Source: Bacteroidales bacterium
Lineage (GTDB): Bacteria > Bacteroidota > Bacteroidia > Bacteroidales > P3
Direction: 5' to 3'
Assembly (NCBI GenBank): GCA_017443265.1
Contig: JAFSOU010000012.1
Coordinates: 1 to 64,000, forward strand
Length of the DNA stretch: 64,000 nt
This document shows, piece after piece, positions 31,536-52,575 of the stretch; positions within the stretch are counted from its first letter, which is position 1; each line of letters begins with the position of its first letter. Position numbers and translations under genes: made by a program. The notes under the pieces are model-generated. The model did not search any database and had not been told where the DNA came from. It worked only from the letters and a program-made list of their open reading frames with translations.

Positions 31536-31544
31536 TTGTGGATG

Positions 31545-31656
31545 GATGCCCCCAAGGGGGCAGAAATCACACAAATCTGAACAAATCGAACAAATGTTTT
31601 TGAAAAAACATTTTTGAAAGATTTGATAATTATTTGAGATATTTTTAGCGAAGCCG
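31545..31656. repeat. inverted-repeat element without ORF (copy 1)
   Basis: The element starts with a hairpin GCCCCC/GGGGGC (31548-31561). It then has the arm AGAAATC, two bases, ACAAATC, four bases, CAAATC, two bases, ACAAAT. After a short centre comes a degenerate inverse arm (GATTTGATAATTATTTGAGAT) and a small GC-GAA-GC hairpin. It directly follows lysS and abuts copy 2. Same design as 39606-39708 and 52383-52485. Confidence 0.6.
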
Positions 31657-31663
31657 ACATGTA

Positions 31664-32324
31664 TGAATGCTCCTTGTGGGGCAGAATTTCGAAGTAGTCG
31701 TGAACTCTTTTGAAATAAGATGCATAGTGAACAAATCATACAAATCTGAACAAATCTAACAAGTAGATTTGTATTGGATAACATGTAGAATATGGACTTG
31801 ATAGAAGAACATAATAAACGTTACGCTTTCTTTCGTGAAATAACGGGAGAGGCAATGAGGGTTCATCGCAAATTCCGTGGTGGTCTTCTTGAAAGCGCAT
31901 ACGAAGCCGCACTTAAATATTTGTTGGAGCAGAAAGGTTTTAATGTAGAACGTCAGGTGTATCTGCCCATCTATTGGGACGATGTGCGTCTTGACCAAGA
32001 TTACCGAATGGATTTGGTGATAAACGGAAATATTATAGTTGAGCTAAAGGCGGTCAAATATATTGATACTCCACATCGTCGCCAGTTGTGGAATTATATG
32101 AATCTGACCCATTTACAATATGGAATGCTTATCAATTTTAGTCCGGATGGACTTTATAGCGAGTGGTATTGCCGAGATGAAATAACAGGAGAAATAGATA
32201 AGGTTAAATTGTTGTAAATGTGAAATATTCTTGATAATGACGATGTTGCAAGAATCTGTCATTTCAAATATAAAATAGATTTGTAAGATTTGGAACGATT
32301 TGTCGGATTTCTCACCGAAGGTGA
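31664..32324. mobile_element. inverted-repeat element carrying a GxxExxY ORF (copy 2)
   Basis: The left end has the hairpin GCTCC/GGGGC (31669-31682) then AGAATTTC. Repeated ACAAATC-type units at 31728-31760 lead into the ORF. The right end holds the inverse arm (AGATTTG, AAGATTTG, CGATTTG, then GGATTTC at 32305-32311) and the hairpin TCACC/GGTGA around GAA (32312-32324). Arms are mutually inverted, so the transcript could fold the ORF into a loop, as in rRNA intervening sequences. Mobility is inferred; no target-site duplication was identified. Confidence 0.55.
31792..32217 (+). CDS. GxxExxY protein (PDDEXK_3 family)
   Basis: This is a 141-residue protein with the family-defining GLLESAY (G31, E34, Y37). 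A PD-(D/E)xK-like core follows: YRMDLVINGNIIVELKAVKY, with Asp74, Glu84 and Lys86. The C-terminal part ends QYGMLINFSPDGLYSEWYCR. Members are small nuclease-like proteins of unknown role that occur in many scattered copies in Bacteroidetes and other phyla. Here the ORF fills the centre of an inverted-repeat element while sister elements lack it, suggesting it is the autonomous or cargo version. All catalytic-type residues are present. Confidence 0.88.
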   Translation: MDLIEEHNKRYAFFREITGEAMRVHRKFRGGLLESAYEAALKYLLEQKGFNVERQVYLPIYWDDVRLDQDYRMDLVINGNIIVELKAVKYIDTPHRRQLWNYMNLTHLQYGMLINFSPDGLYSEWYCRDEITGEIDKVKLL

Positions 32325-32341
32325 TAAAAAAAGTAAATATC

Positions 32342-39605: not shown

Positions 39606-39708
39606 TTGGATGCCACTTCGTGGCAGAAATCATACAAATCTTTTCAAATCGAACAAATACTATTCTGTCTGATTTGTTCTAATTTGTTGGATTTCTTGCC
39701 GTAGGCGA
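39606..39708. repeat. inverted-repeat element without ORF (copy 3)
   Basis: The left hairpin is GCCAC/GTGGC around TTC (39612-39624), then AGAAATC, ACAAATC, CAAATC and ACAAAT units. After a 13-base centre come the inverse arm ATTTGTTC, AATTTGTTG, GATTTCT and the right hairpin GCC/GGC around GTA (39698-39706). This is the cleanest ORF-less copy of the family at 31545, 31664 and 52383, and is nearly a minimal two-armed element. Confidence 0.65.
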
Positions 39709-51790: not shown

Positions 51791-52372
51791 ATGAAAGATT
51801 TTTTCGCACACGAGACAGCCGTTATCGACGAAGGCTGCACCATAGGCAAAGGTACCAAGATATGGCATTTCACGCATATTATGGCGGGATGCACCATCGG
51901 CGAGGGCTGCAACATAGGCCAGAACGTGGTGGTGTCGCCCGACGTGGTGCTGGGACGTAATGTCAAGGTGCAGAACAACGTATCCATCTACACCGGTGTT
52001 ACCTGCGGCGACGACGTGTTTCTCGGACCTTCGTGCGTGTTCACAAATGTAACCAACCCGCGCAGTGCAGTAAACCGTAAGAGCCAGTACGCCAAGACCC
52101 ACGTGGGCAACGGCGCCACAATCGGGGCCAACAGCACCATAGTGTGCGGACACGACATTGGCGAATATGCCTTTATCGGTGCCGGGGCAGTGGTTACAAA
52201 AAATGTGCCCGCCTATGCGCTCTTGGTGGGCAACCCCGCCCGTCAGATGGGATGGATGAGCCGCTACGGCCACCGCCTCAAATTCGACGCCGACGGTTTT
52301 GCCACCTGCCCCGAAAGCGGCGAACGCTATCAACTGAAAGACGGCTCTTGTAAATTGATAATTGAAAGTTGA
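51791..52372 (+). CDS. hexapeptide-repeat N-acetyltransferase, WbpD/WlbB-like
   Basis: This is a 193-residue protein from ATG 51791 ([20 protein letters not shown]). Hexapeptide repeats ([51 protein letters not shown]) make a left-handed beta-helix. The C-terminus has a Cys-containing segment ([14 protein letters not shown]). It resembles UDP-sugar amino N-acetyltransferases for O-antigen precursors. It is 3.3 kb from the glycan operon, so a role there is plausible but inferred. Confidence 0.87.
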
Positions 52373-52382
52373 AAGTTGAAAT

Positions 52383-52575
52383 GCTCCTTGCCCTTCGGGC
52401 AGAAATCTTGGGAATCTAAACAATTTTTCGCTGAAAGCGAAAGTGATTTACAAGATTTATTAGATTTCTTTCGCCGTAGGCGAAAAGGAGAAAAAAAGAT
52501 TTATAGAACTCCACGAGCCGTAGGCGAGCAGGAAAAAAAATAATCTACAAGATTTACAAGATCTCGCGAAGCGAA
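52383..52575. repeat. inverted-repeat element without ORF (copy 4) plus extra hairpins
   Basis: The left hairpin is GCCC/GGGC around TTC (52390-52400), then AGAAATC (52401-52407). An inner hairpin TTTCGCT/AGCGAAA lies around GAA (about 52425-52441). The inverse arm ends GATTTCT, then comes the right hairpin TTTCGCC/GGCGAAA around GTA (52469-52485). Two further GCC-GTA-GGC and TCGC-GAA-GCGA hairpins follow (52516-52574). It is preceded by GAAAGTTGAAAGTTGA. Nothing coding is seen in 52373-52618. Confidence 0.6.

Follow-up and report, generated by a model that had tools for sequence, protein, structure and literature searches.

Introduction

In ribosomal RNA (rRNA) intervening sequences with an S23/IVP open reading frame (ORF), two inverted arms pair into a long stem and enclose the small ORF; these sequences also exist in ORF-less versions and are patchily distributed. 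The four-helix-bundle family concerned (TIGR02436) is encoded in rRNA intervening sequences, the stems of which are cut by RNase III (PMC4990558, PMC11270868), and a likeness of PF05635 to Avd, an accessory protein of DGRs, has been pointed out (PMC10053308). REPINs are doublets of hairpins associated with RAYTs (PMC3116915). In insertion sequences and MITEs, an autonomous unit is accompanied by ORF-less derivatives with the same inverted ends.

Here, we describe elements from a 64,000-nt stretch of a Bacteroidales genome (the window; contig JAFSOU010000012.1, positions 1 to 64,000) that resemble each of these systems in part. They share the long-stem inverted arms, small ORF, ORF-less versions, and patchy distribution of rRNA intervening sequences, and the intervening-sequence protein family itself was found to use the same architecture with 7-nt words. 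Unlike intervening sequences, they are intergenic, have arms built of words, carry a predicted PD-(D/E)XK ORF in the window's element, and give no sign of RNA-level pairing. Like REPINs and RAYTs, they include many copies of an inverted-repeat doublet of ~100 nt that folds into a hairpin, with a linked enzyme gene in the genome that has these repeats on its flanks. In REP systems, however, the sequence is constant within a genome and the enzyme is a Y1 HUH transposase, whereas in the present elements the letters change from locus to locus, the protein is a predicted PD-(D/E)XK enzyme, and its gene lies inside the mobile unit in several copies. As with insertion sequences and MITEs, an autonomous unit is joined by ORF-less derivatives, but we found no transposase in the unit, no family-wide fixed terminal inverted repeat, and no recognized target-site duplication.

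The ORF belongs to the GxxExxY family (PDDEXK_3). In the literature searched, which covered a minority of subscription journals and preprints, GxxExxY appeared in two papers, in passing, PF13366 and PDDEXK_3 were essentially absent, and we found no account of arms, mobility, or function for this family, nor of these word-repeat elements.

Results

Inverted-arm elements in the window

The window contains three ORF-less inverted-arm elements and one that encloses a GxxExxY gene (Table 1). An earlier note on this DNA had described four arms that share a motif and end in cap hairpins with variable, self-complementary stems. Exact matches to the motif AGAAATC-NN-ACAAATC lie at 31562(+), 32297(-), and 39625(+), and matches with a single mismatch lie at 52454(-), 39681(-), and 31731(+); when three mismatches were allowed, the arm pattern matched 24 times in the window compared to 7.4 expected, and none of 100 shuffles attained 24. 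All four stems read as the earlier note had them; the fourth arm (52454-52469) is degenerate, reading AGAAATC-TA-ATAAATC-TTG-TAAATC. Inverted pairs lacking an ORF were recovered at each of the three places proposed, but the right arm of the pair at 31545-31656 has decayed. Arms do surround the GxxExxY gene within the proposed element at 31664-32324, but the gene itself is confined to the coordinates in Table 1, and 31664-31730 is a separate leader module. When folded as single strands, each of the three ORF-less elements beat 200 of 200 shuffles (z -3.4 to -5.9). No known RNA family in Rfam matched, and the Rfam scan detected no rRNA in the window, where the GxxExxY element lies between lysS and a recB-like gene.

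Table 1. Positions of the elements and their parts in the window
Feature	Position	Strand	Remarks
ORF-less element A	31548-31658 (end approximate)	+	cap hairpin 31548-31561 (stem GCCCCC/GGGGGC), left arm 31562-31596, right arm and cap decayed
GxxExxY element, left cap hairpin GCTCC-TTGT-GGGGC	31669-31682	+	layout as in other copies
Leader module (GAATTTCGAAGTAGTCGTGAAC ... GTGAAC)	31683-31730	+	between cap and arm
GxxExxY element, left word arm ACAAATC-AT-ACAAATC-TGA-ACAAATC-TA-ACAAG	31731-31770	+	
GxxExxY gene, 141 aa	31792-32217	+	predicted PD-(D/E)XK nuclease; TIGR04256 / PF13366; residues E34, D74, E84, K86, Q98, Y102
GxxExxY element, right word arm	32273-32312	-	inverted repeats I1-I3
GxxExxY element, right cap hairpin TCACC-GAA-GGTGA	32312-32324	-	stem TCACC/GGTGA
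Double insertion (element A and GxxExxY element)	31536-32336	.	between lysS (stop 31535) and recB-like gene; missing in congener G003
ORF-less element B	39611-39708	+	caps 39612-39624 (stem GCCAC/GTGGC) and 39696-39708; arms 39625-39658 and 39666-39696
7-nt word array TTGAAAG	52362-52382	+	kind flanking the genome's own four-helix-bundle gene on contig 87
ORF-less element C	52384-52490	+	CTCCT, cap 52389-52401, arms, central hairpin 52426-52442, cap 52469-52485 (stem TTTCGCC/GGCGAAA), AGGAG

The GxxExxY protein

The window's protein is a clear member of its family, scoring 121.2 bits against TIGR04256 (cut-off 35) and 114.2 against PF13366 (cut-off 22). Residues E34, D74, E84, Q98, and Y102 were invariant in 37 sequences, and K86 was nearly invariant. 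The predicted model is confident (mean pLDDT 95, pTM 0.87). Its best match among PDB structures was Cas4 SSO0001 (Foldseek E 3e-5, Z 8.8), with further fold matches to the nuclease domain of BpuSI and to the archaeal Holliday-junction resolvase Hjc (Z 6.5); a search by sequence found no homologue of solved structure. Both a restriction-endonuclease fold and a D...ExK site are present in the model and residues, and we predict an intact PD-(D/E)XK nuclease for GxxExxY, although a shared fold alone does not prove function.

Copies and covariation

A covariance model built from seven ORF-less copies identified ~20 places in the 2.77-Mb genome of this bacterium and roughly 6-15 in each of three congeners. 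Most copies were read on both strands because the element is nearly palindromic. The general layout is [CTCCT] - cap hairpin - GAAATC-type words - central hairpin or GxxExxY ORF - complementary words - cap hairpin - [AGGAG]. As the earlier note had anticipated, ORF-less copies are numerous, both in this genome and in other families, and the cap hairpins covary. Among 42 distinct copies, each taken in one orientation, the letters of both caps and of the central hairpin differ while pairing is kept. Changes on both sides of a pair numbered 54 and 37 in the two caps and 64 in the central hairpin, compared to shuffled means of 16.6, 8.0, and 25.8, counts that come from an alignment fitted to the model and from related copies and therefore do not represent independent events. 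Congener G001 retains ORF-less AAATC elements, and the only GxxExxY gene found in it is of another word type.

Occupied and empty sites

Clean empty sites in relatives, which the earlier note had called for, were found for two gaps. In congener G003, lysS and the recB-like gene are only a few bases apart (GGGATAGGATTATATCATGCC), at the position where the window has a double element of ~800 bp. A second site, from another family, lies between two genes that we read from sequence as aldehyde-dehydrogenase-like. This gap is empty in G218 and G220 (TTGAATTAAGATGAGC) and occupied in G175, G029, G074, and one copy from G219 (TTAACCGCAAAGACGC ... GxxExxY ... GCGGTTAA); the other G219 copy has the same gap filled by an element with different words. 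In at least one occupied copy, that of G029, the end of the element supplies the stop codon of the upstream gene. Both sites thus have occupied and empty alleles, as expected of a mobile element. Comparing filled and empty junctions at the two sites, in relatives that are 10-20% diverged, revealed no evident target-site duplication.

Alleles of the two other ORF-less elements also differ among congeners. The site of element B is occupied in G001, and the element was not found there in G002 or G003; we dropped this site (39606) as an empty-site case because it is not clean, the flanks of G002 and G003 differing as well. At the site of element C, the G002 allele has a leader module, and G001 has a 7-nt word repeat in its place.

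Gene and arms travel together

We collected 153 distinct GxxExxY loci from Bacteroidia, in part by a single-protein scan of GTDB contigs, and scored arms as the best local inverted match between the 300 bp upstream and the 300 bp downstream of each gene. The median score was 34 with a gene's own partner flank, 18 with swapped partners, and 18 for control genes from the same loci. Scores of at least 30 were obtained for 65% of own-partner, 3% of swapped, and 1.8% of control comparisons, which gives a positive answer to the earlier note's question whether GxxExxY genes sit between such arms beyond chance. This sample is skewed to high-scoring family members, and 53 of its loci form a close clade; the broad class subset by itself gave a similar result (median 32). 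The earlier note would have yielded to GxxExxY genes elsewhere in the genome that lack arms; all three GxxExxY genes of the genome have them, each with different words. Arm words differ by locus in general (for example, CGCAGAGG, CACAGAGA, CACTAAGA, CACAGATTA, AACGGATA, and ACAAATCNN), and the match across arms exceeded repetition within an arm at 103 GxxExxY loci compared to 42. Chance and low complexity as a source of the arms were ruled out by shuffles, swapped partners, and control genes.

Arm similarity climbs with protein identity, whereas the similarity of sequence 330-450 bp upstream does not; at 70-80% protein identity, arms were similar in 31% of pairs and outer flanks in 4.5%. Because the arms track the protein and the upstream flank does not, gene and arms make up the unit, and the outer flanks belong to the site. 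Only GxxExxY was found inside the arms at the loci that we read. In two more families of Bacteroidia, f20 and f57, words of the resident elements recur 7-28 times per genome, compared to 0-4 for a reversed-pattern control, and ORF-less word pairs within 250 bp faced inward in 15 cases and outward in none; the same word search gave one match in G005 and none in G079, genomes with other words. The GxxExxY gene together with its two inverted word-repeat arms is therefore one mobile DNA unit, and the gene-less copies are its miniature derivatives, because gene and arms stay together as outer flanks change, empty sites are clean, and the many miniatures carry the genome's own words.

Two thirds of the units are co-directional within gene runs, resembling ordinary operon genes; the gene shared its direction with both neighbors in 64 cases and was reversed in 6. 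Insertion sequences, by contrast, tend to random orientation. GxxExxY genes were present in 130 of 198 Bacteroidia genomes, and the same architecture occurs in Sphingomonas, Gemmatirosa, Treponema, and Bacteroides finegoldii; among replicons of other phyla, judged by eye, it is clearest in Sphingomonas, where fabD and fabG flank a unit, and in Gemmatirosa. Clear arms are missing from about a third of GxxExxY loci. These include L149-L153, an armless clade from Pedobacter and a related MAG with a similar flanking layout in several species, which is possibly a vertically inherited form. We rejected phage or plasmid cargo as an account of the family, as one query returned GxxExxY in 8 of 72,556 plasmid records and in 0 phage records.

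Damaged genes were also seen. L105 and L138 have one in-frame stop codon each, with L105 clearly inside word arms, and on a plasmid of Gemmatirosa kalamazoonensis (L342) a frame-broken GxxExxY gene lies between two complete ORF-less CGCAGAGGA hairpin elements.

A sister class with 7-nt words

The earlier note had likened the elements to rRNA intervening sequences. The likeness held in that four-helix-bundle genes of the 23S rRNA intervening-sequence family (TIGR02436) share the architecture with another word length, but membership did not, as there was no rRNA in the window or at any of 19 four-helix loci scanned against Rfam, and no sense-strand excess of G-U over A-C pairs. The word period is exactly 7 at four-helix loci; at GxxExxY loci, it peaks loosely at 9 with a spread of 8-12 (permutation p about 1e-4 for the difference). 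At four-helix loci, the excess of cross-arm match over within-arm repetition was less clear (29 compared to 19). Four-helix-bundle genes were present in 79 of 99 Bacteroidia genomes. Four of the seven in the window's genome were examined (L322-L325; contigs 81, 107, 103, and 87); word arms of 7 nt were clear at three (scores 38-44), and the match at the other was weak (22). One intergenic gap is filled differently within a single genus: some species have a GxxExxY unit there (L365-L367), and another has a 7-nt four-helix unit (L373, G148). The TTGAAAG words of L325 also adjoin many 9-nt elements, including the one next to positions 52362-52382 of the window.

Mechanism and alternatives

Structured ends with a period specific to the ORF family are observed; we infer that GxxExxY moves the element. 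In DNA that is single-stranded or supercoiled, the arms would fold into a hairpin or a cruciform, and GxxExxY would recognize this paired structure by reading the register of words that recur every ~9 nt and not any fixed letters. GxxExxY would then cut at the element ends or at an acceptor hairpin to start movement, and host replication and repair would copy or carry the element to new, mostly intergenic sites. GxxExxY may also act in trans on miniatures, and in the sister class the S23/IVP four-helix-bundle protein would use a 7-nt register. We know of no strand-transfer activity of a lone PD-(D/E)XK domain, and a host partner must therefore be assumed. Several observations count against the proposal: the lack of a recognized target-site duplication, the GxxExxY loci with no clear arms, the loose GxxExxY period, the ORF-less AAATC elements of G001 beside a GxxExxY gene of another word type, and the operon-like orientation of the genes. 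Taken as a whole, the proposal of a mobile unit with miniatures, a register-reading GxxExxY nuclease that cuts, and a 7-nt four-helix sister class seems to us evenly poised between right and wrong. If the proteins do read register and not letters, this would be an unfamiliar way to recognize element ends.

One alternative is that these are RNA-level elements like rRNA intervening sequences, in which base pairing between the arms forms in the transcript and the insert is excised by RNase III, making insertion into operons harmless and the ORF a rider. This idea stays alive because, in two thirds of cases, an element sits within a gene run and points the same way, and it draws further support from the shared architecture of four-helix-bundle genes, whose family belongs to RNase III-cut rRNA intervening sequences (PMC4990558, PMC11270868). 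Selection on the sense transcript, however, should favor G-U over A-C pairs, and we counted 245 compared to 325 at GxxExxY loci and 42 compared to 44 at four-helix loci, a test of limited power in that the mismatches fall mostly in spacers and look random. This lack of a G-U excess on the sense strand suggests that the arms pair as DNA and not as RNA; RNA-level excision also leaves the 7-nt or 9-nt period unexplained and finds no rRNA at the loci checked, and we regard it as unlikely. Slightly less likely again, in our judgment, is movement by another enzyme, such as an IS200/RAYT-like Y1 transposase or a reverse transcriptase acting in trans, with GxxExxY a passenger that, for example, regulates or protects the element. 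Cap hairpins do look REP-like, REPIN doublets are tied to RAYTs (PMC3116915), and there are six Y1_Tnp genes in this genome and 2-6 per congener. None of these genes is on the window's contig, however, and the four Y1 (HUH) loci inspected were flanked not by AAATC arms but by other hairpins (CGCCCCGAAGGGGC), on which ground we rejected a RAYT as the mobilizer; moreover, the arms follow GxxExxY protein identity, and a different ORF family brings a different word period.

Mutation might instead build the arms as a by-product around a normally inherited gene, by slippage and quasipalindrome correction. Template switching of this kind would let the letters of a stem change without loss of complementarity, the pattern found in the caps, and needs no selection, and it may be how the arms stay homogeneous. 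As an account of the elements themselves it is improbable, failing on the clean empty sites, the unrelated outer flanks, the many ORF-less copies, and the dependence of the period, 7 or 9, on the protein family. Homing, in which GxxExxY would cut the empty allele and repair would copy the element in, fits the predicted PD-(D/E)XK fold and the exact placement of an insert between a stop codon and a start codon. Homing keeps to one site, however, whereas these units occupy many unrelated sites, and word arms are to our knowledge foreign to homing endonuclease elements; we consider it very improbable.

A broader form of the mobile-unit proposal is a new class of mobile DNA, its ends set by the register of degenerate words, in which GxxExxY (~9 nt) and the four-helix relative of DGR Avd (7 nt) both mobilize ORF-less hairpins in several phyla through an as yet undescribed chemistry of transposition. 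We offer this reading tentatively and with some doubt. Finding GxxExxY and four-helix-bundle genes, among the commonest multi-copy genes of unknown function, in word-repeat elements gives the two families a shared and testable role, and both may be cargo of unrecognized mobile DNA; the finding also ties the puzzle of rRNA intervening sequences to a genome-wide insertion class and accounts for many odd intergenic word repeats.

Associated repeats

The leader module is ~60 nt long (GAATTnCGnAGnAATCGTGAAC ... GTGAAC), can be in either arm, recurs many times in the genus, and occurs without an ORF as well. It is present or absent between alleles of one element (window positions 31683-31730; L274, L266, and L283) and may be a nested element or a promoter. 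Two Y1/RAYT-like genes of the genus (L349 and L350) are flanked by CGCCCCGAAGGGGC-type hairpins and GGCAACGCCGTAGG repeats and form a separate REP-like system.
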